Shown: positions 4,197-38,916 of the stretch, piece by piece
Numbering within the stretch: position 1 is the first letter of the stretch
How the letters are laid out: each line of letters opens with the position of its first letter
Source of the DNA: Arthrobacter russicus
Lineage (GTDB): Bacteria; Actinomycetota; Actinomycetes; Actinomycetales; Micrococcaceae
Length of the DNA: 64,000 nt
NCBI RefSeq assembly: GCF_031454135.1
Contig: NZ_JAVDQF010000001.1
Location: forward strand, 744,001-808,000
Direction: 5' to 3'
Translations under genes and position numbers: made by a program
Notes under the pieces: model-generated
Seen by the model: only the letters and a program-made list of their open reading frames with translations
What the model was told of the DNA's origin: nothing
Databases searched by the model: none

Positions 4197-5464
4197 GAGG
4201 CCATCTTCTCCTGTTCAATCGATTTCGGTGTGTTCGTCGGGGATCGCCATCCGCGGCTGGCGATCAGCCCCGCCACGATGGCGATCACGGCGAGGACCGC
4301 GGCCGCGACCGTCAGGCTTGCGGCGCCGATCCATCCGGCCAGCGGGTAGGTGATGAGGAAGCAGGCGTGGGAAAGGGAGAACTGCGCCGTGTAGATGTAG
4401 TTGCGGGTGTTGTCATCCGATGCGCGAGCGAGCAGTCGCGCAGAGGGGGTGCTGATCATCGAGTTCCCTGCGCCGATGAACAGCCACAACGGGAGCAACA
4501 GCCACCAAGCACCTCCCCCGGCGGCCGACGTCGCCCAAGCGGTCATTCCCACTGCACCGATGAGGGCGAGGGAGCTGACAGTGGCTCCGGTGAGCATGAG
4601 GCGACGGTCGCCGATGCGTTCCACGAGTCTCGGGACGTTGATCGCGACCAGAAGGGACCCGGCGCCGTAGCAGGCGAGCGCGAATCCGAGGCTGCTGTTG
4701 TCGAACTGGAACACGTCTCGGGCGTAGACGACGGTGTTCACCAGCACCAGAGCGGTGCCGGCACCGACCACGAGGTTCATCGCCATCAGGAACCGCAGGC
4801 TTGGCGTCCTGGCGAAGATTCTTGCGCCGAGGGTTGTGCGGTGCCACACCGATCCTGTGGTCGTGACGGGTGTGCGCGAGGGGAACGGGGTCACCAGCAC
4901 GAGCACGGCCGAGAGGGCGAAGCCGACCGCGGTGCCCACGAACAGCAGGTTGAACTCGATCACGCTCAGCAGCGCGGCAGCCAGCAACGGGCTCACCAGT
5001 GCTTCGAGGTCGTAGGCGAGACGGGACAGCGAGAGCGCCTTGGTGTAGTCGCGTTCGTTGGGCAGAACCACGGGGATTAGTGATTGGAACGCGGGGGTGA
5101 ACGTCGCCGACGCGGACTGCAGGATGAACACCAGCAGGTAAATTTGCCAGATATCGGTGAGGAACGGCAGAGAGATGGCGACGGCGAGGCGGATCACGTC
5201 CGCCCCGATCAGTACGGCCTTCCTCGGCAGCCGATTCACTAGAGCGGCGATCACGGGCGCCACGCCCACATACGCGACCATCTTGATCGTCAGGGCGGTG
5301 CCCAGCACCGCCCCGGCATCAGCCCCGGCGATGTCGTACGCGAGCAGGCCGAGCGCGACGGTCAGCAGCCCGGTTCCCAGCAGCGCCACCACCTGAGCGG
5401 TGAACAGATTGCGGTAGCGAGACTCCCGCAGCACACTCAACACATCAAACCTCGTTACCTGCAT
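4193..5464 (-). CDS. MFS efflux transporter controlled by the ArsR gene
   Basis: 423 residues, about 12 transmembrane segments, major facilitator superfamily. The ATG at 5464 is preferred because upstream in-frame residues are Arg-rich and would cover the promoter. The gene is transcribed first, followed by the overlapping ArsR gene. MFS proteins paired with ArsR repressors export metals or drugs; the substrate cannot be read from sequence. A partly palindromic 21-base site overlaps the start and probably serves as operator. Confidence 0.85.
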   Translation of the reverse strand: MQVTRFDVLSVLRESRYRNLFTAQVVALLGTGLLTVALGLLAYDIAGADAGAVLGTALTIKMVAYVGVAPVIAALVNRLPRKAVLIGADVIRLAVAISLPFLTDIWQIYLLVFILQSASATFTPAFQSLIPVVLPNERDYTKALSLSRLAYDLEALVSPLLAAALLSVIEFNLLFVGTAVGFALSAVLVLVTPFPSRTPVTTTGSVWHRTTLGARIFARTPSLRFLMAMNLVVGAGTALVLVNTVVYARDVFQFDNSSLGFALACYGAGSLLVAINVPRLVERIGDRRLMLTGATVSSLALIGAVGMTAWATSAAGGGAWWLLLPLWLFIGAGNSMISTPSARLLARASDDNTRNYIYTAQFSLSHACFLITYPLAGWIGAASLTVAAAVLAVIAIVAGLIASRGWRSPTNTPKSIEQEKMAS

Positions 5465-25538: not shown

Positions 25539-26102
25539 GTGAAACCTCAACGCCCAGACCATGAACAGCCGAAGACCCGACGTGCAGCCCGCCGCGCCGC
25601 GGCACCGACCGACCAGGCGCCGACAGTGCTGCCGAGCGTCGTCATCGCCGTCGCCGAGACCGGCGAGCTGACGGTCACCATCGATGACGTCCCGTATCCG
25701 TCGGAGCCGTTCGCTCCCGCCTGGCGGAGGGAAGACTTCGCCCGGCTAATCGACCAGATCACCGACCAGCGGCACTCCGCGATCCGCGTCGAAGTTCGCG
25801 AGAGCGACGGCACCGTGTTCACCGATATCGTCGCACCCGCCCGGCGGCGCACGTCGGAGACCGCGCCCGACCCGCAAGCCGCCACTGCCGCCGCTGCCGT
25901 GGAGCTCGTCGAACTGCGCGGCAGCGGGTTCGTGCCCGGCGAGGACATCGCGGTCGCCGTCGTCGTCGCCCACACCGACGCCAGCCACGACGGCACCGCA
26001 CGCACCGTCCTGGAAGCCACACAGCTCGACGCGAGCCCGACCCGCGAAGTGATCCTGCTCGGGCGAGTATCGGGAACGCTCGAGATCGGGCACCCGCAAT
26101 GA
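25539..26102 (+). CDS. Hypothetical protein of the transfer operon
   Basis: 187 residues from GTG 25539; an upstream GTG at 25506 is inside the hairpin and less likely. The start is Arg/Ala-rich, then a beta-rich section (VVIAVAETGELTVTIDD) and an Ala/Val-rich C-terminal part. It overlaps the VirD4-like gene (ATGA). Function unknown. Confidence 0.6.
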   Translation: MKPQRPDHEQPKTRRAARRAAAPTDQAPTVLPSVVIAVAETGELTVTIDDVPYPSEPFAPAWRREDFARLIDQITDQRHSAIRVEVRESDGTVFTDIVAPARRRTSETAPDPQAATAAAAVELVELRGSGFVPGEDIAVAVVVAHTDASHDGTARTVLEATQLDASPTREVILLGRVSGTLEIGHPQ

Positions 26103-27919
26103 GCACTCCGAGACCCGCAGGGTCGCTCGGCGACGAGCTGACCAACTTCGGCATCGGCATCCTCGTCGCGGCCGCACTGCTGGCCGCGGTGCTGCGCGGC
26201 GCGGCCGCGCTGACCGCATGGATCACCGGGCTCCCGCAGCCGACGGGCGGCGTCGAGGCCGGCCTCGGCGTGCTGCTGCACCCCCTCGACCCCGCCGTCC
26301 CGCTGGGCGCCCCCGGGCTCAACCCGATCGCCTACTGGGCCACCGCGCTGATCCTCCTCGCCGGGACCGGGATGATCGGCTGGTCGGTGTGGCGCCTGAT
26401 GCGCGAGCACGGGCGCGCATCGAAGAGCGACCCGTACCGCATCGCCGGGATCGCCACCCGCGCAGACGTCGTGCGGAACGCCTCGGCCAAGGCGTTGCTG
26501 CGTCGTGGCAGCCAGCTGCGCCCCTCGGTGCACAAGCCCGCCGCAGACGACATCGCCTACCTGCTCGGCACCTCACGAGGGCCGGGCGTGTGGGCGAGCG
26601 TCGAGGACTCCATCCTCCTCATCGGCCCGCCCCGCTCCGGCAAGGGCCTCCACGTGGTGATCAACATGATCCTCGACGCACCCGGCGCAGTCGTCACCAC
26701 CTCGACACGACCCGATAACCTCACCGCGACCCTCCGCGCCCGTCAGGCGATCGGGCCCGTCGCGGTGTTCGACCCGCAGCACCTGGCCGAAGGCCTGCCT
26801 GCGGGGCTGCGATGGTCACCGATCCGCGGCTGCGAAGACCCGCTGACCGCGATGATCCGCGCCGCCGGACTCGCCGCAGGCACAGGCCTGTCCGCAGGCG
26901 GTGTGGAAGGAGGCGGGTTCTGGGAAGGCAAGACCCGCACAGCCCTGCAAGCCCTCCTACACGCTGCGGCTCTCGACCACCGGCAGCCGGCGGAACTGTT
27001 CCGCTGGACCCTCGACCCGTCGGCGGCGGCCGATGCGGTGGCGATCCTCGTCGGCCACCCCCGGGCGGCGGCCGGGTGGGCGGAGTCGTTGCAGGCAATG
27101 ATCGACTCCGACCCCCGCACCCGCGACTCGATCTGGCAAGGCGTCTCCCTGGCGCTGGCCGCGCTCGCCGACCCGCGAGTGCTGGACGCGGTCTCACCGG
27201 GGCCTGCCGAGCAGTTCGATCCCGAGTCGTTCCTGCGCGCGAAGGGCACGCTGTATCTGCTGGCGACCGGTGCGGGCGCGAACAACAGCTCGGCGCTGGT
27301 GGCGGCCTTCGTGGAAGACCTCGTCGAGGCCGCCCGGCACATCGCCGCCACCAGCCCCGGGGCGCGCCTCGATCCGCCCCTGCTGCTGGCCCTCGATGAG
27401 GTCGGCAACCTGGCTCCGCTGCCGTCCCTTCCGACGTTGATGGCCGAAGGTGGCGGCACCGGGATCACCACCGTGCCCGTGCTGCAGTCGCTCGCGCAGG
27501 CACGGGAGAAGTGGTCGGAGAACGCGGCCAGTGCGATCTGGGACGCGTCGATCGTGAAGATCATCCTCGGTGGCGCGTCGAACTCGCGGGATCTGAACGA
27601 CCTGTCGACGTTGATCGGCGAACGCGACGAGATCACCGACTCCACAACGGTCGGCGACCACGGCTCCCGGTCGGCACAACGGTCGATCCGGCGGGTGGCG
27701 ATCATGCCGCCGGACACGATCAGGACCTTGCCGTTCGGCACTGCGCTCGTGCTGTTGCGCAGCGCCCCGCCGATCGTGACCCGCCTGCGCGCGTGGACGG
27801 TCCGCCGCGACGCGAAAGAGCTGCGTGCCGATCGGGCCGGTATCGAGCGGCTTCTCGAACGGCCCGCCCCCGCCACCGGTGATGTCGAGAACGCACCTGT
27901 CGGTCAGGACGAACCATAG
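26099..27919 (+). CDS. VirD4/TraG-type coupling protein
   Basis: 606 residues. Two N-terminal membrane helices lie at about 17-40 and 80-100. Walker A is GPPRSGKG at 176-183, and Walker B is LLLALDEVGNL at about 428-438, followed by LPSLPTLMAEG. The size and order match T4SS coupling ATPases, which bring the relaxase-DNA complex to the channel. It ends 8 bases before a short leader gene. Confidence 0.88.
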   Translation: MSTPRPAGSLGDELTNFGIGILVAAALLAAVLRGAAALTAWITGLPQPTGGVEAGLGVLLHPLDPAVPLGAPGLNPIAYWATALILLAGTGMIGWSVWRLMREHGRASKSDPYRIAGIATRADVVRNASAKALLRRGSQLRPSVHKPAADDIAYLLGTSRGPGVWASVEDSILLIGPPRSGKGLHVVINMILDAPGAVVTTSTRPDNLTATLRARQAIGPVAVFDPQHLAEGLPAGLRWSPIRGCEDPLTAMIRAAGLAAGTGLSAGGVEGGGFWEGKTRTALQALLHAAALDHRQPAELFRWTLDPSAAADAVAILVGHPRAAAGWAESLQAMIDSDPRTRDSIWQGVSLALAALADPRVLDAVSPGPAEQFDPESFLRAKGTLYLLATGAGANNSSALVAAFVEDLVEAARHIAATSPGARLDPPLLLALDEVGNLAPLPSLPTLMAEGGGTGITTVPVLQSLAQAREKWSENAASAIWDASIVKIILGGASNSRDLNDLSTLIGERDEITDSTTVGDHGSRSAQRSIRRVAIMPPDTIRTLPFGTALVLLRSAPPIVTRLRAWTVRRDAKELRADRAGIERLLERPAPATGDVENAPVGQDEP

Positions 27920-27927
27920 GAGCACCC

Positions 27928-27987
27928 ATGCCGAACGACCGCACGATGAAGCGCCGCGCCCTGTCGACGGGTGAGGGGGCCCTGTGA
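27928..27987 (+). CDS. 19-residue leader peptide before the methyltransferase-helicase gene
   Basis: A short frame with AGGAG five bases before its ATG encodes 19 residues (MPNDRTMKRRALSTGEGAL). Its stop overlaps the helicase ATG (TGATG at 27985-27989). The strong ribosome site and the coupling suggest it is translated and delivers ribosomes to the large gene. It could also be the eroded remains of a longer gene. Confidence 0.5.
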   Translation: MPNDRTMKRRALSTGEGAL

Positions 27988-30900
27988 TGGTCAGGCGGCG
28001 CGGGCCGAAGGTGCACGAGGGCCAGCTCGAGTTCGACCTGTGGGGCCTCGGTGAGACCGCAGCGGACGCGACCCTCTCGCTCGCCCGTGACGGAGAAGCG
28101 ACCGACGCGAACGATGGTGGAGGAAACACGGATGAACAAGTACGGGCAGCTCGCGACGAGCCACTGGCACCAGCACCTGCCGGCCAGGTACGCGGCGTTG
28201 GAGAACCCGGCGGAGTTCTTCGAGAGCCTGGGCCGGCAGGTCGAGGCCGAGGTGTCGGACCTGCAGGCGATACTGGCAGGGACGGACCCGGCGAGGGAGA
28301 CTTATCCCGAGAAGGTCGCCCGGTTGGCGACCGCGCGGAGAACAGCGGAGGAGGTCGTGATGGCACAGCTGGTGTGGAGCCACGATCCGGAGCTGCCGCT
28401 GGATCAGGCCCGCGAGGAGTGGGAGCAGACCCGGCCCTCAGACGAGAATCTGGTGACCTGGGCGGAGCGGATGCAGGACTCCCCGGACTTGATGCCCTCC
28501 TCGGTGGAGCTGGAGCAGATGGCGAAGGACTGGGCCGTCCCGGTCTCGTTCCTGGAGGGCCTGGTCGCGACGGAGCCGCCGCGGGAGTACCTGCGGGCGA
28601 ACGCCGAGGTGCTGACGGAAGCGGCGACGATCCGCTTCCTCCGCGAACTCCAGTAGCCACCGCTGAATCCGCGCCGGTTCCTGAGCTGGCGTCACGATTC
28701 GTCCCGGCGTCGCAGGAAGATCTCGCACCGTCCGGGGCGAAGGCGCGGTTCCGTGCCAACGTCGAGGCGATCCGCCTCACCCGCGCTCTCGCCGATGAAG
28801 GGCGCGCGGCGCGCAGCGATGAGCAGCGGGCGCTGGCGCGCTGGTCGTCGTGGGGTGCGATCCCGGACGTGTTCGACGCCGCGAAGCCGGACTGGGCGCG
28901 GGAGCGTGACGAGTTGCGCGCCCTGCTGGCGGATGACGAGTGGGAGGCGGCCGCCCGGACGACGATCAACGCCCACTACACCGACCCGCTGATCGCGCGG
29001 CAGCTGTGGCGCGCCCTCACCGCCCTGGGCTTCCAGGGCGGCGCCGTGCTCGAACCCGGATCGGGGGCGGGAACATTCATCGGCCTCGCCCCCGACAGCG
29101 CGACCATGACCGGCGTGGAGCTTGATCCGATCACCGCGGCGATCAGCCGGGGCCTCTACCCGCACGCAGAGGTGCGGGCGGAGTCGTTCGCAGATACGCG
29201 CCTCCCGGAAGCGCACTTCGACGCGGCGATCGGGAACGTGCCCTTCTCGAAAGTGGTGCTGCACGACCCGGTGCACAACGCCACCAAGCAATCGATGCAC
29301 AACCACTTCATCCTCAAGTCGCTCCGGCTGACCCGCCCGGGCGGCCTGGTGGCGACGTTGACGTCGCACTTCACGATGGATGCGCAGAGCCCCGGCGCAC
29401 GGCGAGAGATGAACGACCTCGCCGACCTCATCGGCGCGATCCGTCTCCCGACCGGCGCGCACCGCAGGGCGGCCGGAACCGAGGCGCTCACCGATCTGCT
29501 CATTTTCCGACGCCGCGAAGACGGCGAACCGCCGGCGGACGAGCTGTGGGAGACCGTGCGGACGATCACGCTGGATGGTCAGCCGACGAAGATCAACGCC
29601 TACTTCGACGAGCACCCCGAACAGGTCCTCGGGGAGCTCAGCGTCGAGCAGGGCATGTACGGTCAGGCTTCACTGAAGGTCACTGCGGACGTCGATCGGC
29701 TCGAAAATGACCTCGCTGGCGCGATCGATGCGCTCGTGTTCTCCGCGCGCCGAGGCGGGCTCGTCATGACCGAGCGCACCGCTGCGCAGCAATCGCGTCG
29801 GGCAGCGTTCACCCCGTCGCCGCCGGAGGCGTGGGACGGCAGCATCGTCGTCCAGCCCGGCGGCGCCTTCGCGACCGTCGCGGGCGGCGGGCTGGAGCCG
29901 TTCGCGGTGCCGAAGTCCGCCAGCAAGGAGCTGACCGCGCTACTCGGGCTGCGCGATCGCGCGACCGCGCTGCTGGCGATGGAAGCGGCGACCGTCGATG
30001 ACACCGAGGAGATCACCGAGGCGCGCGCGGCCTTGCGGCGCGACTATCAGAAGTACCTCGGCGCCTATGGACCGCTGAACAGGTACGGGCTGCGCCCGAC
30101 CGGCCGCACGAACGACGCCGGTGACGCCACGTACGCGCGCATCGTCCCGACCCCGCTGCGCCTGCTGCGATCCGACCCGTTCGGCCCCCTCGTCCTGGCT
30201 CTGGAGCAGTTCGACGACACCGACCAGACGGCGCACCAGGCAGCGATCCTCTCGCGCCGGGTCGTCGCACCGCGCGCGGAGGTACAGGGCGTGGAGACCC
30301 CCGCCGACGCGATCGCGGTGAGCCTGGACAGAACCGGGCGTATCGACATCGCCCTCATCGCCGACCTGCTCGGCATGACCGACCACGAGGCGCGGCCCGC
30401 ACTCGACGGGCTCGTGTTCACCGATCCGGTCACAGGCGAGCTGGTGCACGCGCCCGCATATCTCTCCGGCGACGTCCGAGCCAAGCTCGATGACGCGACC
30501 TCCCGCGCTGCGGAAGACCCGGAGTTCCAGAGGAACGTCGACGCGCTCCAGAGCGTTCTGCCCGAGCCGCTGGGAGTGGAGGACATCTCGGCGCGACTGG
30601 GGGCGGTGTGGATCAGCGAGCAGGTTCACCAAGACTTCCTTCGCGAGCTGCTGCGAAACCCCGAAGTGCGGGTGGAGAACCCGATGCCGGGCATGTGGGA
30701 AGTCCGCGGCGGACGCCAAGGCCTGCTGTCGACATCTGAATGGGGTACGTTGCGCCGCCCGGCGCCGGATATCGCGCAGGCGGTGATGGAGCAGAAGACG
30801 ATCCTCGTCTACGACGAGATCGAGGAGGCGGACGGGACGAAGAGGCGGGTCCTCAACCCGGTCGAGACCGCCGCGGCGCAGGAGAAGGCCGAGGCGTTGC

Positions 30901-33698
30901 AGGAGCGTTTCGCCGAATGGGTGTGGGAAGACCCGGCCCGCGCCGCCGACCTGGTCGCCGAGTACAACAAGCGGTTCAACAGCATCGTGCTGCGCGACTA
31001 CACCGATGCGGGCGACTACCTGTCCCTGCCAGGGCTGGCGGCGAACTTCACGCCGCGCCCGCACCAGCGTGCTGCGGTCGCCCGCATGATCGCGGAACCT
31101 GCCGCGGGGCTGTTCCACGAGGTCGGGGCGGGGAAGACGGCAGAGATGATCATGGGCGCGATGGAGATGCGCCGCATGGGTCTCATCTCTAAGCCGGTCA
31201 TCGTCGTGCCGAATCACATGCTCGAGCAGTTCGGGCGGGAATGGTTGCAGCTGTACCCGCAGGCGCGAGTACTCGCCGCGTCCAGCCAGGAACTCACGGC
31301 GGACAAGCGGCGCCTGTTCGTCGCCCGCGCGTCGGCGAACGACTGGGACGCGGTGATCCTCACGCAAGGGGCGTTCGCGAAGATCCCGCTGCGCACCGAG
31401 ACGCAGCAGGCGTACATCCGCGCCCAGGTCGAAGAGGTCAAGGGCGTGCTGGAGCACGCCGAGGGCGAGGACCGGATGAGCGTCAAGCGCGTGCAGCGAA
31501 AGCTCCTCGCTCTGGAGAACAAGCTCAAAGACCGCACCGACACCAGCCGCGACCAAGGGGTGTGCTTCGAGGACACGGGCATCGACTACGTGGTGGTCGA
31601 CGAGATGCATATGTACAAGAACCTCGCCACCGAGTCGAACATCCGCGACGCCGCGATCGACGGCTCCGACCGCGCCACGGACCTGCATATGAAGCTCGAA
31701 CACCTCCGCTCCCAAGGCCGCGAACGCGTGGTCACCGGCGCCACTGCCACGCCGATCAGCAACAGCGTGACCGAAGCGTTCGTGATGCAGCGCTACCTGC
31801 GCCCCGATCTGCTGGAGAAGGCGGGCATCGGGTCGTTCGACGCCTGGGCGGCCACGTTCGGGCAGACCGTGACGCAGATGGAGATGGCCCCGACCGGGAA
31901 CACGTTCCGGATGAAGACCCGGTTCGCGAAGTTCCAGAACGTGCCAGAGATGCTCAAGCTCTGGTCGGTGTTCGCCGACGTGAAGACCGCCGACGACCTG
32001 CAACTCCCGACGCCCGACCTCGCGGCACGGGACGACGGCGCGCGGGTGCCGGCGACGGTCCCGGTGCAGCCCACCGTGGAACTGGAGCAATACATCGAAT
32101 CCCTCGGTGATCGCGCGGAGAAGGTGCAGAACAAGCAAGTCACTCCGGACGAAGACAACATGCTCACCATCAGCACAGACGGGCGCAAGGCCGCACTCGA
32201 CATCCGTATGGTGCTCCCATCCGGAGGGCCGTCGGGGCCGACGAAGGTGGACGCCGCCGCGGACGCGATCTTCCGTGTGTGGGAAAAGACACGCGACAAC
32301 GAGTACCTCGACACCCTCACCGGGCAGCCCTCATCCGTGCGCGGCGCGTTGCAGCTGGTGTTCTCTGACATCGGCACCCCCAACCCCGACAGGTGGAACG
32401 CCTACGACGAACTCCACGCTCAGCTTGTGCTGCGCGGCATGCCCGGCGAGGCGATCCGGTTCATGCACGAAGCGAAGACCGACGCCGACAAGGCCCGACT
32501 GTTCGCCGCCGCACGCGCCGGGCACATCGCCGTGCTGGTCGGGTCGACCGAGAAGATGGGCGTCGGTACGAACGTGCAGGCCAGGGCCGTCGCGCTCTAT
32601 CACCTCGACTGCCCCTGGCGCCCGTCCGATATCGCCCAGCGGGAGGGTCGCATCCTCCGGCAAGGAAACCAGAACCCCGAGGTCGCGATCGTCCGGTTCG
32701 TCACCGAGCGGTCCTTCGACTCGTATATGTGGCAGGGCGTCGAGCGGAAGGCCACATTCATCGCGCAGCTGATGCGGGGCCGCCTCGACACCCGCGAGAT
32801 AGAGGAGATCGACTCCTCCGCCCTCTCGGCAGCGGAGGCGAAGGCGATCAGCTCCGGCAACCCGCTGCTGCTGGAGCACTCGACCGTCCAGAACGAAGTC
32901 ACGCGCCTACGCCGGCTGGAACGCGCGCACCAACGCAACGAGTCCATGCTCGTGCACACCCGGGATCGTGCCCGCGATGATGCCCGACGAGCTCAAGCCG
33001 ACATCGAAGGGCTGGAGGCCGCCGCACCGCGCGTCCGGGATACCGGCGGCGACCGGTTCCGGATGCGACTGCACGGCCACAACTACGACTCTCGCGTCGA
33101 CGCCGGCCATGCCCTCATGGCTTGGGCACGGGACTCAGGCTTCACGTCGGTGCCCTTCTACACGAGTCGCGACTACGGCATGATCGGGTCGATCAGCGGA
33201 TTCGACATCCGCCTGTCGACGCACCCGATGCTCAGAACGCTGATGGTCGAGGTCGGTCTCGTCGGGGTTCCTCGCAGTAGCTTCAGCATGTCCCGGGAAG
33301 CGTTTCTGGACGGCGCAACCGGACTCATCCAACGCATCGAGAACCGTGTCTCCGGCATCCCCACCCTGCTCGAGCAGGCACGCAGCGACCGTGACATCGC
33401 ACAGCAGTCAGCCGCAGAAGCGCAGGCGAGGATTGGCCTGCCCTTCAAGCATGCGACCGCGCTCACCGAAGCCGAGGAAGACCTCACCCGCGTCGAGGCA
33501 CAGCTCGCCGCGATGCAGGACAATGGCGAACCTGAGCCGACCGCCACCGAGCGGGCGTCACTGACCGTGGAAGTCGTGAACGCCCACAGGCCCGCACTCG
33601 GCATACGTTCACATCCGGATCGTCATCCGGCGGCATTCGAGCCCAAGACTCCCGGCGCTCCAGTCGGGCGCGAGAACGGCCGAAACCTCGGCCCGTGA
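27987..33698 (+). CDS. Giant N6-adenine methyltransferase plus SNF2-type helicase, DarB-like antirestriction candidate
   Basis: 1,903 residues. After a short N-terminal segment and a low-complexity stretch (about 49-223, see the nested gene), an AdoMet-binding methyltransferase domain begins: VLEPGSGAG at 354-362 and a catalytic-type block GNVPF shortly after. The helicase part has Walker A GAGKT at 1047-1051, DEMH at 1205-1208, TGATATPIS at about 1250, and motif VI QREGRILRQG at about 1551. A coiled-coil-like C-terminus follows. Proteins with this architecture occur on many conjugative elements and in phage P1 DarB, where they protect incoming DNA from restriction. That role here is inference. 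Confidence 0.85.
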   Translation: MVRRRGPKVHEGQLEFDLWGLGETAADATLSLARDGEATDANDGGGNTDEQVRAARDEPLAPAPAGQVRGVGEPGGVLREPGPAGRGRGVGPAGDTGRDGPGEGDLSREGRPVGDRAENSGGGRDGTAGVEPRSGAAAGSGPRGVGADPALRRESGDLGGADAGLPGLDALLGGAGADGEGLGRPGLVPGGPGRDGAAAGVPAGERRGADGSGDDPLPPRTPVATAESAPVPELASRFVPASQEDLAPSGAKARFRANVEAIRLTRALADEGRAARSDEQRALARWSSWGAIPDVFDAAKPDWARERDELRALLADDEWEAAARTTINAHYTDPLIARQLWRALTALGFQGGAVLEPGSGAGTFIGLAPDSATMTGVELDPITAAISRGLYPHAEVRAESFADTRLPEAHFDAAIGNVPFSKVVLHDPVHNATKQSMHNHFILKSLRLTRPGGLVATLTSHFTMDAQSPGARREMNDLADLIGAIRLPTGAHRRAAGTEALTDLLIFRRREDGEPPADELWETVRTITLDGQPTKINAYFDEHPEQVLGELSVEQGMYGQASLKVTADVDRLENDLAGAIDALVFSARRGGLVMTERTAAQQSRRAAFTPSPPEAWDGSIVVQPGGAFATVAGGGLEPFAVPKSASKELTALLGLRDRATALLAMEAATVDDTEEITEARAALRRDYQKYLGAYGPLNRYGLRPTGRTNDAGDATYARIVPTPLRLLRSDPFGPLVLALEQFDDTDQTAHQAAILSRRVVAPRAEVQGVETPADAIAVSLDRTGRIDIALIADLLGMTDHEARPALDGLVFTDPVTGELVHAPAYLSGDVRAKLDDATSRAAEDPEFQRNVDALQSVLPEPLGVEDISARLGAVWISEQVHQDFLRELLRNPEVRVENPMPGMWEVRGGRQGLLSTSEWGTLRRPAPDIAQAVMEQKTILVYDEIEEADGTKRRVLNPVETAAAQEKAEALQERFAEWVWEDPARAADLVAEYNKRFNSIVLRDYTDAGDYLSLPGLAANFTPRPHQRAAVARMIAEPAAGLFHEVGAGKTAEMIMGAMEMRRMGLISKPVIVVPNHMLEQFGREWLQLYPQARVLAASSQELTADKRRLFVARASANDWDAVILTQGAFAKIPLRTETQQAYIRAQVEEVKGVLEHAEGEDRMSVKRVQRKLLALENKLKDRTDTSRDQGVCFEDTGIDYVVVDEMHMYKNLATESNIRDAAIDGSDRATDLHMKLEHLRSQGRERVVTGATATPISNSVTEAFVMQRYLRPDLLEKAGIGSFDAWAATFGQTVTQMEMAPTGNTFRMKTRFAKFQNVPEMLKLWSVFADVKTADDLQLPTPDLAARDDGARVPATVPVQPTVELEQYIESLGDRAEKVQNKQVTPDEDNMLTISTDGRKAALDIRMVLPSGGPSGPTKVDAAADAIFRVWEKTRDNEYLDTLTGQPSSVRGALQLVFSDIGTPNPDRWNAYDELHAQLVLRGMPGEAIRFMHEAKTDADKARLFAAARAGHIAVLVGSTEKMGVGTNVQARAVALYHLDCPWRPSDIAQREGRILRQGNQNPEVAIVRFVTERSFDSYMWQGVERKATFIAQLMRGRLDTREIEEIDSSALSAAEAKAISSGNPLLLEHSTVQNEVTRLRRLERAHQRNESMLVHTRDRARDDARRAQADIEGLEAAAPRVRDTGGDRFRMRLHGHNYDSRVDAGHALMAWARDSGFTSVPFYTSRDYGMIGSISGFDIRLSTHPMLRTLMVEVGLVGVPRSSFSMSREAFLDGATGLIQRIENRVSGIPTLLEQARSDRDIAQQSAAEAQARIGLPFKHATALTEAEEDLTRVEAQLAAMQDNGEPEPTATERASLTVEVVNAHRPALGIRSHPDRHPAAFEPKTPGAPVGRENGRNLGP
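28132..28656 (+). CDS. Hypothetical protein nested out of frame in the helicase gene
   Basis: 174 residues, read in the +1 frame relative to the surrounding helicase gene. GGTGGAGGA lies 8 bases before the ATG. Third codon positions are almost all G or C in this frame, while the helicase frame across the same bases gives low-complexity Gly/Arg/Pro. The protein looks normal and acidic: MNKYGQLATSHW, then EFFESLGRQVEAEVSDLQ, and WAVPVSFLEGL near the end. I recognise no family with certainty. It appears to be a gene lodged in the helicase N-terminal linker without breaking its frame. Confidence 0.75.
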   Translation: MNKYGQLATSHWHQHLPARYAALENPAEFFESLGRQVEAEVSDLQAILAGTDPARETYPEKVARLATARRTAEEVVMAQLVWSHDPELPLDQAREEWEQTRPSDENLVTWAERMQDSPDLMPSSVELEQMAKDWAVPVSFLEGLVATEPPREYLRANAEVLTEAATIRFLRELQ

Positions 33699-33923
33699 GA
33701 ATGGCGGGCTCGTCAACAGCCCGCCTCGCGCGAGTACGCGCCGAAGTACAGCAGTCTCTCTGGGCCTTCCTGCTGGTGTCGGCCGGTCGAGCCCGCCGTG
33801 ACAGTGGCGACGCCGCGATCCTGTGACGGGGTGCATCACACTTCTCTGTTGTGGTGAGGGTGTGCACCTCTCCTGCACAGAGACGCCCCGGATGGGGTGA
33901 CGAGGATGCAGGAGGACACGATC

Positions 33924-34382
33924 ATGACCATCACCACGAAGCCGTCCGTTTCGGGGTTCATCGCGACGACGCCCCGACGGTCGGAGACACGCGAGGGCAG
34001 GACGAAGTTCTACGCCCGGTTCGCGCAGTCGCACGCGCAGCGCAACGACGACGGCACCTTCACGCAGCTCGACTCGAGCTTCAGCAACATCGTCGCGTAC
34101 GGCGAGGCCGCGGAGTGGGCGCTGGCGAACCTGCAGAAAGGGGACGCCTTCATTGCCCAGGGCAACGAGCGCTCCTACACGCAGCAGCGTGACGGGCAGG
34201 CGGTCGAGGGCGAGGAGTTCATCGCGAACAAGATCAGCCATGATCCGGCTCGTCACCCCTACGTCGTCGACCGCACGCCACGCGCGAGCCGGGGTCAGGA
34301 GCGCCAGGTGTCGTCGCCGCTCGATGACCCCTTCAACGCGCCGCGTCCGCAGACCCAGGCAGCGCCCGCACTCGGGCGCTGA
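33924..34382 (+). CDS. ssb: Single-stranded DNA-binding protein of the element
   Basis: 152 residues from ATG 33924, with GGAGG 8 bases upstream. The OB-fold pattern is visible: GFIATTPRR, FYARFAQ, FSNIVAYGEAAEWALANLQKGD and VEGEEFIANKISHD. The C-terminus (APALGR) lacks the acidic DDDIPF tip of bacterial housekeeping SSB, as in many plasmid or ICE versions. It would coat transferred single strands. Confidence 0.8.
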   Translation: MTITTKPSVSGFIATTPRRSETREGRTKFYARFAQSHAQRNDDGTFTQLDSSFSNIVAYGEAAEWALANLQKGDAFIAQGNERSYTQQRDGQAVEGEEFIANKISHDPARHPYVVDRTPRASRGQERQVSSPLDDPFNAPRPQTQAAPALGR

Positions 34383-36361: not shown

Positions 36362-36679
36362 ACGGCACGCGGCGCTTCCGGGCGACTTGAGCTAGCTAAG
36401 GCTCTTTCCACCGTTCGACTGGCTAGTCGACAGAGCGCGCCGCGATCAGGAACGGTTTGGGCCGCTCGACGGTGTCACATTGCTCATCAAGTTCTCTGAT
36501 CCGTTCCCGGATCGCGTCCACATGCTCCTAGAAGCACATAGCAAAGCCCCAATCCAGCCGCGTGTTGTCCAAGGGAGAAGCAGGACTCGACGTAAGACAC
36601 GGCTGACCGGTACCGATGACGACCCGAGCCGCACGCACAGTACATTCGCGTATCAAGGGGGTCCGCCGAGGCCACAGAG
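36362..36679. other. Gap between the element genes and tRNA-Gly
   Basis: No confident gene. On the minus strand, 36426-36521 reads as a short protein-like tail (VDAIRERIRELDEQC ... FLIAARSVD) from a GTG with a poorly spaced GGAG; it may be a truncated gene end. If an element is integrated in the tRNA-Gly 3' end, its attachment site would lie at about 36680-36700. Confidence 0.4.
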
Positions 36680-36750
36680 AGGGGACGACGGGAATCGAAC
36701 CCGCGTTGGCTGCTTGGGAAGCAGCCGTCCTACCATTGAACGACGTCCCC
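36680..36750 (-). tRNA. tRNA-Gly (anticodon CCC)
   Basis: The reverse complement folds into a full cloverleaf: a seven-base acceptor stem GGGGACG/CGTCCCC, D-arm GTTC/GGAC, anticodon arm GCTGC-TTCCCAA-GCAGC with CCC, and a T-arm with TTCGATT. The discriminator base is U and no CCA is encoded. A possible -10 TATGCT lies just upstream (about 36767, minus strand). Its 3' end faces the conjugative genes; its 5' end faces the integrase 3' end, about 54 bases away. Confidence 0.93.
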
Positions 36751-36804
36751 GAGTAGGTGACCTCCAGCATACGGGACGTGGGCGCGCATGGCGAACGCGC
36801 GTGT

Positions 36805-38061
36805 CTACGGTTGGCAGTCGCGGTGCTCGATCGAGCCGCTCAAAGCTAGCAGCGACTCGGCGCCGACGATCTTCTCCTCTCTGCCGGTGTAGTGCTGTGT
36901 CGTCGTCCGCTTGCTCTCGTGCGCGAGGACCTGCTGAGCGGTGTCGGCGCCGAGCGCAGCCGCAGCAGACTTTCGCATCGAGCGGTAGACGAACATCTCC
37001 TGCGGCACGCCGATAGCGTCCAGCTCCTCCTTGTGTGCCGCTCGGAACCTGCGCGCCAGCGCTTGTGGGCGCTCGGGGTACATCCCCTTTCCGGCGCGTG
37101 TGACGAACAGCAGATCGCCGAGGGAGTCGGCCATCCGCCGCTTGAGCACGGCGTGCACATCGGTGTTCACGACCTCGATCAGTCTCTCCTGGCCTTTGCC
37201 CTTCAGCTCGGACTGTCTGTAGAGACCCTTTTCGTCCGTGTGGGTCATCGTGCCGTTGATCCAGACGTGCTCGGTGAGGACACTCTGCTTGTTCGGGCGG
37301 AGCACGACGTCTTCGCGCCGGAGTGCCAGGGCTTCGGAGAGCCGGATGGTCAGGCGGTTCGTGAGTATGAGGAGATCGGCGAGGAGGCGCACGTCGGGTC
37401 GCTTCCCGGTCTTGCTTCCACGATTCTGCTCCCACGCCAGGACGAGCTGGATGATCACCGCGAGGTCGTCGTCAGTCAACGCAATCAGCTTCGAGGCTGG
37501 GCGGTGGATGGCGAGTGTCCTTACTGAGGGCACCGGACTGGCTCCTGGCGAGACGACACCGTGCAGAATCGCTAGGTCGAACATGCCGGCGAGCACGCTG
37601 CGAGCCATCAAGGCCTCGTGATTCGATTTCGTGCGGGCTACCTCGTGGAGGAAGTTGTAGATGCGCGCCGGCGTCAACGACGTGATCTTCACTCCCCAGA
37701 GCAGCGGCTTGATCGTGCTGTGCAGTGTTCCCTCATAGCGATCGATCGACTGCGGCTTGATCTTGCCCGGCTGCGGGTCGGCCTCGTCCCATTGCCGATT
37801 CCGCCGGAGATCCAGCAACCAGGCGACGGCGAGCTGCTCGACCGTCCCGGCCGGGTCGACCTGCTGGAAGACGCCGCCCCAGATGAGGTGGGCCTTGCGC
37901 TGCAGGTCGTCTTGCGCGGCTTCCGGGGAAGGACCCCACCCCTGCACGTGGTGTGCTCGACCTTCGCCGTCACGAATGCGGGTGTCGGCGCGGAACCGCT
38001 CCCGGTACTGCTGGACACTAACCCTGCCGAGCTCACCCGGCTGCTTCTTCGGCCTGGGCAT
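36805..38061 (-). CDS. int: Tyrosine-type site-specific integrase
   Basis: 418 residues. It contains an N-terminal SAM-like/core-binding region at about 100-190 and a catalytic domain after it. Box I Arg is in TIRLSEAL, the C-terminal block is AHESKRTTTQHYTGR with the nucleophile Tyr in QHY, and RSMRKSAAAAL carries the second Arg. The usual His of the HxxR motif is Tyr here (YRSMR). The start overlaps the excisionase stop (TGATG). It would recombine attP and attB for excision and integration. Confidence 0.9.
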   Translation of the reverse strand: MPRPKKQPGELGRVSVQQYRERFRADTRIRDGEGRAHHVQGWGPSPEAAQDDLQRKAHLIWGGVFQQVDPAGTVEQLAVAWLLDLRRNRQWDEADPQPGKIKPQSIDRYEGTLHSTIKPLLWGVKITSLTPARIYNFLHEVARTKSNHEALMARSVLAGMFDLAILHGVVSPGASPVPSVRTLAIHRPASKLIALTDDDLAVIIQLVLAWEQNRGSKTGKRPDVRLLADLLILTNRLTIRLSEALALRREDVVLRPNKQSVLTEHVWINGTMTHTDEKGLYRQSELKGKGQERLIEVVNTDVHAVLKRRMADSLGDLLFVTRAGKGMYPERPQALARRFRAAHKEELDAIGVPQEMFVYRSMRKSAAAALGADTAQQVLAHESKRTTTQHYTGREEKIVGAESLLALSGSIEHRDCQP

Positions 38062-38318
38062 CACGACCCCCGCCGCTGGGCGATGAGCCAGTCCCGCACG
38101 TCGGCAGGAAAGTAGCGGATGCGGTTGCCTGCGATCTTGACGTAGACCGGTCCGCCGGACCTGTTCGACCGCCACACGTCGAGGGTGTGCCGGGTGAGCC
38201 CGAGGAACGCGGCCGTCTCCTCGACCGTCCACATGATCGGTGCGCCGTCGGCAGTCAGGTCGAGCCTCGTCGGGTCGAGCGGGGCGGGGTCGCGGGGTCG
38301 GGGCGTCTGTGGTGTCAT
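38061..38318 (-). CDS. xis: Excisionase-like DNA-binding protein
   Basis: 85 residues from ATG 38318. The C-terminal half is a MerR/Xis-type winged HTH: MWTVEETAAFLGLTRHTLDVWR, ending RIRYFPADVRDWLIAQ. Coupled to the integrase gene, it is the expected directionality factor. The first 25 residues are Pro/Arg-rich and probably disordered. A longer upstream open frame lacks coding character. Confidence 0.8.
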   Translation of the reverse strand: MTPQTPRPRDPAPLDPTRLDLTADGAPIMWTVEETAAFLGLTRHTLDVWRSNRSGGPVYVKIAGNRIRYFPADVRDWLIAQRRGS

Positions 38319-38798
38319 GCACCGTAGGTGCGACAGCCGTGCAACGCGGCATCGCTGCGCTGAACCTCGGGTGAGATGTGGTGCAGAACGGTGACGTCGG
38401 CGCGGCCGATCGGCACCCAATGCAGGGTTTCTCCGTCGAAACTCCGTCGAGAATGCGGTCATCGGTGGTCTCCCATGGTGTCGAAGACACCGCTGGACAC
38501 CAGCAATTGCTGGGTCCAGGAGACCTAGATGAGGGGCGAGGCGCGTCTGGGATGATGAAGCAGAAGTTCTGAAGCGGGCAGTCCCGGACATTGCTTCCCG
38601 TCGGGTGTACGCGTCGGGGTCCCCGGCGTTCGTCGCACACGCGGTTGCCCATGGCCATCGGGCCGGGGCCCGGAAAGTGCATACCGACAGCTTCCTCGGC
38701 TACTGATCCTGCTGCCGGCCAATCGCCTGAACGGACGCTGGTTTTTCCTCCGGTTTTTCTTCTCGGAGCCCAACCTGCTAAGCTCGACTGGTCCCGAT
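38319..38798. other. Non-coding junction between excisionase and tRNA-Arg
   Basis: About 480 bases without a convincing gene. It contains a perfect 14-base palindrome, CCAGCAATTGCTGG at 38500-38513, inside a larger hyphenated repeat (38494-38518), and T-rich tracts (38741-38760). A tRNA-Arg promoter with -10 TAAGCT at 38779-38784 seems intact, so an element-chromosome junction, if present here, lies left of about 38740. Confidence 0.5.
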
Positions 38799-38871
38799 GC
38801 CCTCGTAGCTCAGGGGATAGAGCGTCTGCCTCCGGAGCAGAAGGCCGGTGGTTCGAATCCACTCGAGGGCA
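38799..38871 (+). tRNA. tRNA-Arg (anticodon CCG)
   Basis: Acceptor stem GCCCTCG/CGAGGGC, D-arm with AGCTCAGGGGATAGAGC, anticodon loop CTCCGGA with CCG, T-loop TTCGAAT, discriminator A, no CCA encoded. A strong bidirectional terminator follows 10 bases downstream. The gene's 5' side, not its 3' side, faces the mobile region. Confidence 0.93.
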
Positions 38872-38880
38872 CTGAAAATG

Positions 38881-38916
38881 CAGTTGAGGCCCGGTCCCAG
38901 GACCGGGCCTCAACTG
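38881..38916. terminator. Strong hairpin terminator after tRNA-Arg
   Basis: A perfect 16-bp stem (CAGTTGAGGCCCGGTC and its complement) with a CCAG loop is followed by TTT. It separates the tRNA from the convergent gene ending at 38949 and could serve both. Confidence 0.85.

Follow-up and report, generated by a model that had tools for sequence, protein, structure and literature searches.

The window, the 64,000-nucleotide stretch of Arthrobacter russicus DNA analysed here, contains a giant helicase gene that encloses a second, shorter gene wholly within its open reading frame, out of frame and on the same strand. The features at and around this locus are listed below.

26099..27919, + strand: VirD4/TraG-type coupling protein, directly 5' of the helicase (Pfam TraG-D_C, E 3.3e-27)
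27987..33698, + strand: giant helicase coding sequence, 1903 aa, open frame
27987..28130, + strand: helicase N-terminal tether peptide, MVRRRGPKVHEGQLEFDLWG...
28023..28040, + strand: QLEFDL, candidate sliding-clamp-binding motif (regex match; non-canonical hexamer)
28119..28123, + strand: Shine-Dalgarno GGAGG of the nested gene, inside the helicase coding sequence
28131..28655, + strand: helicase linker, 175 residues rich in G, A, P, R and D, read from the nested gene in the +2 frame
28132..28656, + strand: nested gene (ATG...TAG ORF, 174 aa) for a distant member of the TnpV family, in +2 phase relative to the helicase
28722..29783, + strand: conserved N-terminal core of the helicase, which served as search query; methyltransferase-like (VLEPGSGAGTF, GNVPFSK)
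31110..31850, + strand: SNF2-related domain (Pfam PF00176, SNF2-rel_dom, E 2.1e-6)
32445..32666, + strand: helicase C-terminal domain (Pfam PF00271, Helicase_C, E 2.8e-5)
33897..34382, + strand: SSB-like protein, 3' of the helicase (Pfam SSB, E 1.2e-5, just below the cut-off)
36679-36750: tRNA-Gly
36805-38913, - strand: phage-integrase match, weak
38799-38872: tRNA-Arg

The helicase can start at ATG 27987 (1903 aa) or at GTG 27984 (1904 aa), and its layout runs from an N-terminal tether through a linker and a methyltransferase-like region to the SNF2 helicase. The SNF2 and Helicase_C domains both exceed the Pfam cut-offs; the methyltransferase-like character of the N-terminal core is suggested by its sequence motifs. 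In the +2 phase, each helicase codon is formed by the third base of a nested codon and the first two bases of the next. As a preliminary description of this DNA had stated, there is a 174-codon ORF with a good ribosome site at 28132-28656, the helicase frame remains open through it as a low-complexity sequence, and no helicase start follows shortly after 28656. The ORF has a GC3 of 92.5%, with 8 nt between GGAGG and the ATG, and the helicase frame is open from 27984/27987 to 33698. The first in-frame start past that point is GTG 28869, about 70 codons on and within the conserved core, so a helicase initiated beyond the nested gene would have a truncated core. The linker comprises 48 G, 24 A, 21 P, 20 R and 16 D among its 175 residues, with 27 acidic and 20 basic residues. 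Such double openness could by itself be due to chance and is not significant at this locus alone: 151 of 800 equal-length windows (19%) taken from homologous helicase cores are also open in the +2 frame. Significance comes from the comparison between loci described below.

The helicase and its nested partner sit in an integrative conjugative element. Upstream of the helicase, besides the coupling protein, are VirB4-like, SCO6880-family and SCO6881-like genes, together with genes for a prim-pol protein, ParB and an M23 peptidase. The tRNA-Gly, the weak integrase match and the tRNA-Arg (36679-38913) together suggest an end of the element. The same genome holds a second copy on the minus strand (locus L030, G000:C1:3391976-3392494), in which the nested gene is 65% identical, starts with GTG and is likewise nested in the +2 phase.

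The nested protein and its TnpV relatives

The nested protein of the window scores 14 bits (E 0.052) against the Pfam TnpV model PF14198, below the gathering cut-off of 27 bits. Its relatives G739 and G765 reach 31 and 144.9 bits, and 17 of 36 homologues match the model at E 0.1 or better. Profile alignment to canonical TnpV with hhalign (97.4%, E 1e-11, 82 columns) covers the first ~83 residues, and the nested protein is on this evidence a distant TnpV. The remainder, approximately residues 85-174 (28384-28653, DQAREEWEQTRPSDENL...), is an additional C-terminal helical region that is strongly conserved in the close group and missing from shorter TnpV relatives. An AlphaFold2 model of the nested protein is all-helical (pLDDT 90.7, pTM 0.51). 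A fold search with this model found no PDB match at E < 1, a profile search of PDB sequences returned weak helical matches only, PHROGs and NCBIfam gave no useful match, and a scan of viral contigs with the nested protein of the window found no relatives. Canonical TnpV (PF14198, a Tn4451/Tn4453-type transposon protein) thus resembles the nested protein in its core alignment and its carriage on mobile elements, whereas the sub-cut-off score, the extra C-terminal region and the nesting in a helicase gene set the window protein apart.

An Xis-like role in excision has been postulated for TnpV (PMC3158075), which has also been labelled a transposase (PMC9815147). In the passages found in these sources it is treated as a free gene, and the passages found in the TnpV literature searched do not mention nesting. 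One of them describes the snf2 gene of Streptococcus suis ICEs as a frequent integration site for tnpV-carrying elements (PMC9815147); any link to the nesting seen here would be conjectural.

Recurrence of the pair and selection on the helicase frame

We gathered related loci from Actinomycetota and from plasmids by searching with both the nested protein and the helicase core. The nested protein yielded 27 related loci and is 54-76% identical in distant genera; homologues of the helicase core occur in 76 of 395 genomes of the family, and 2025 plasmid records show similarity to it. Using a profile of the nested proteins, we found a related ORF, in the +2 phase, in 100 of 103 helicase-core loci, the three without one being distant loci. 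Several of the ORF-bearing relatives have cores that are just 45-50% identical. The helicase frame is open through the nested ORF from an upstream start in 99 of the 100 loci with a TnpV match; in the lone non-nested exception (L080), the helicase frame has been lost upstream. Hosts include Microbacterium, Agromyces, Nesterenkonia, Tessaracoccus, Aeromicrobium, Arthrobacter, Micromonospora and Pseudonocardia. Nesting and phase are conserved: the pair recurs in Actinomycetota and Bacillota with a constant relative frame, and both frames are conserved across independent lineages. At least 5 nt of AAGGAGGT lie upstream of the nested gene in 31 of 45 non-redundant homologues, and in many homologues AGGAGGT is placed 5 nt ahead of the ATG. 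In three loci (L015, L023 and L025), the helicase core is broken by frame changes and the nested region is intact, possibly as a result of sequencing errors or decay of the copies.

These data bear on the preliminary proposal that a gene had been lodged in a tolerant linker, giving two proteins from one stretch of DNA. Its dual-coding part, including a tolerant linker on the helicase side, is strongly supported, since conservation extends to both frames and selection holds that of the helicase open. The expectation that most aligned homologues would show a gap, as after an insertion, did not survive: the gene is found in Actinomycetota and Bacillota at constant phase, nesting extends to the second copy in this genome, and all but three of the core homologues possess it. 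The proposal was to be abandoned if the nested protein were conserved nowhere else; it is conserved in other genomes.

In the +2 phase, the helicase frame meets a stop only where a nested codon ends in T (T3) and is followed by AA, AG or GA. We counted T3 at these danger sites in 45 nested genes from Actinomycetota, representing clusters at 80% identity. None of the 1252 danger sites carries a T, compared to 74.5 expected (z -10.7, stratified by amino acid), and T3 frequency elsewhere in the same genes is 9.2%. There are no +2 stops in 6320 codons, where ~126 would be expected. Helicase cores, whose +2 frame codes for nothing known, served as control and display no avoidance, with T3 at 280 of 2433 danger sites versus 251.9 expected (1033/9529 elsewhere). 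A second set, mostly from Bacillota, comprises 12 nested TnpV genes in helicase frames of 1231 to 2672 codons, at loci of 33-57% GC; here too the danger sites lack T3 (0/303 vs 28.6 expected). T3 is found at 37 of 208 danger sites in 9 stand-alone TnpV genes, which have no spanning frame, and at 1307 of 4447 in the downstream helicase sequence of the second set. Stops in the +1 phase are abundant in the same nested genes (272 and 171 in the two sets), and the codon-position GC signature in distant relatives tracks the nested frame. Because of the common ancestry of the loci, the tests lack full independence, although divergence at synonymous sites is large (fourfold identity ~0.42-0.50 in the controls). 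That GC-rich DNA is open by chance, a plausible view of a single locus, is ruled out by this comparison. Selection holds the helicase frame open beyond what composition and chance account for, and we regard the pair as a genuine, old, same-strand nested pair.

Tether, linker and other occupants of the slot

The tether is in phase with the helicase core in all nested loci and is under purifying selection (pN/pS 0.21 over 306 pairs). Sliding-clamp-binding motifs include QxxLF (PMC12309361, PMC4549789), with the consensus QL[S/D]LF or QLSLPL (PMC12309361). Many relatives have sequences of this kind at the same place in the helicase N-terminus (QLSLF, QVDLF, QTDLF, QYSLF, QLMLPL and similar), whereas QLEFDL in the window is non-canonical and a candidate only. 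The clamp pattern occurs in 23 of 45 Actinomycetota sequences versus 0.5 expected by shuffling, leaving about half of that set without a match, and in 14 of 20 distant relatives versus 1.4; these counts are descriptive, because the pattern was composed with the sequences already in view. We infer a putative clamp-binding tether that would be joined to the helicase through the dual-coded linker.

Synonymous choice in the nested gene is altered. In 224 of 224 pairs of loci, its fourfold sites show greater similarity than those of traG, and G occupies 63% of its fourfold third positions, compared to 39-46% in traG and the core. The raised synonymous identity is partly due to these G-rich third positions, and some excess remains beyond composition. 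When each locus is resampled synonymously from its own codon usage, the actual linker proves richer in Gly, Asp and Glu than the resampled sequences, and poorer in Arg, Lys, Pro and aromatic residues. It is kept in composition and partly at nested synonymous sites, not as a fixed protein sequence. The linker may act as a flexible, not strongly basic spacer, in which chemistry would outweigh exact sequence.

The slot is also occupied by other ORFs. Four loci (L134, L135, L136 and L144) carry ORFs of a different family in the same place and phase, homologous to one another with E-values down to 5e-19, and the ORF of L141 is weakly homologous to them. That this second family could be divergent TnpV is ruled out by an hhalign probability of 0.04%. 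When these non-TnpV ORFs are pooled with those of L129, L133, L143 and L145, T3 is again absent from the danger sites (0/234 vs 17.1 expected), a count that is weaker evidence than the others because these helicases were known to be open before the test. At L133, a plasmid of the betaproteobacterium Paraburkholderia sprentiae, a 101-codon ORF (4612-4917 of the locus), again in this phase, separates the helicase N-terminus from the core. We tentatively consider, at slightly less than even odds, that helicases of conjugative elements have in their linker slot a general site of dual coding: a clamp tether or a domain at the N-terminus would be joined to the helicase by the +2 reading of whatever gene intervenes, the linker would have been born from the nested gene and not the reverse, and at least two unrelated genes (TnpV and the L134/L135/L136/L144 family) would have filled the slot in the same phase. 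If true, conjugative elements hold an ancient family of genes-in-linkers, systematically hidden by annotation.

Proposed arrangement, alternatives and annotation

We assign a probability of roughly 0.88 to the reading that this is an old nested pair in an integrative conjugative element, in which one mRNA yields two proteins. From that mRNA, an all-helical TnpV-family protein would be started at its own internal Shine-Dalgarno sequence and ATG 28132, while translation of the 1903-residue helicase would begin at 27987 and continue across the nested gene without a break. The N-terminal peptide of the helicase, with its clamp-like motif, would be tethered to the methyltransferase/SNF2 core by the flexible dual-coded linker, and TnpV may have a role in excision or maintenance of the element. 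The arrangement could last because a helicase-frame stop needs a T at a nested third position, and each such T is synonymously replaceable. One relative phase would be favoured for the same reason, that its stops can be removed synonymously. The nested protein would therefore be free to evolve, and the linker would need only to stay open, rich in glycine and acidic residues, and poor in bulky or basic ones.

The two genes might instead be adjacent, if the helicase started beyond the nested gene or close to its end and owed its upstream openness to high GC. Automatic annotation makes this choice in five records (L117, L118, L119, L122 and L123), in which TnpV (or a hypothetical protein) is annotated together with a shortened helicase; the 19% of control windows open in +2 and a Kitasatospora locus (L132), where TnpV lies un-nested upstream of the helicase, are likewise in keeping with it. 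We nonetheless judge adjacency improbable, given that T3 is absent from the danger sites of both nested sets and unconstrained in stand-alone TnpV genes and helicase cores, that helicase frames across nested genes stay open even at 33-38% GC, that the upstream peptide is in phase and under purifying selection, and that a helicase begun at the earliest downstream start would lack part of the conserved core. Ribosomal frameshifting in place of independent initiation could link the frames into a tether-TnpV or TnpV-helicase fusion: they are one base apart, and with the nested stop near the core, TnpV could be fused to the helicase by a late shift. Since the tether and core already share one frame, which is open over the whole nested gene and not just near its end, and the nested gene has its own Shine-Dalgarno sequence and ATG, we think this very unlikely.

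Less likely again is that the helicase frame alone is translated, with the nested ORF no more than a shadow cast by codon bias in a low-complexity linker. GC-rich DNA often contains long spurious ORFs, but such a shadow would not be expected to encode a protein with this identity between distant genera, to belong to a family with a stand-alone gene form in Bacillota, to have a conserved Shine-Dalgarno sequence, or to set the codon-position GC signature in distant relatives. That a mobile cassette recently entered the linker of the helicase, a view with which an insert length divisible by 3 (525 nt) and the existence of un-nested TnpV relatives would agree, is the least credible account; it is ruled out by the presence of the gene, in the same place and phase, in nearly all helicase relatives in the phylum, including the several with distant cores. 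The nested pair thus remains our preferred reading.

Same-strand, fully nested bacterial genes are exemplified by comS in srfA of Bacillus and Rz1 in Rz of phage lambda. As in these cases, a complete smaller gene is read in another frame of the same strand from its own internal start; unlike them, the present nested gene exceeds 100 codons, comes from a family that also has stand-alone members, and is found with its partner in two phyla at a fixed phase. The pair would be a variant of this known kind, with both products presumably expressed. The helicase resembles the SNF2 helicase/N6-methyltransferase-like proteins of conjugative plasmids and ICEs in its core and in its place beside VirD4 and transfer genes, but the published descriptions we found omit an internal gene and a dual-coded linker. 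A published description of the TnpV/helicase pair was not found in the literature searched. Bacterial genes that are both long and fully nested seldom gain acceptance, because it is hard to demonstrate that the two frames are each conserved. The present case is unusually testable, since it spans two phyla and 33-70% GC and has natural controls in the stand-alone TnpV genes, and the pair offers an experimentally simple system for the study of overlapping genes.

NCBI rules bar fully embedded genes unless individually justified (PMC8665328). Besides the five records with a shortened helicase, three (L120, L124 and L155) annotate the full helicase and no internal gene, implying that many conjugative-element helicases have been deposited with truncated N-termini or a missing internal gene. 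For plasmids of Cohnella and Monoglobus (L152 and L153), the PLSDB tables, which are incomplete, give TnpV and no CDS for the enclosing 2000-codon helicase frame. TnpV-like genes nested in helicase frames and absent from the records' gene tables were also observed on the Listeria plasmid pGMI16-004 (L126, 4489-4815) and on a Virgibacillus plasmid (L155, 6001-6348), both at 33-37% GC.
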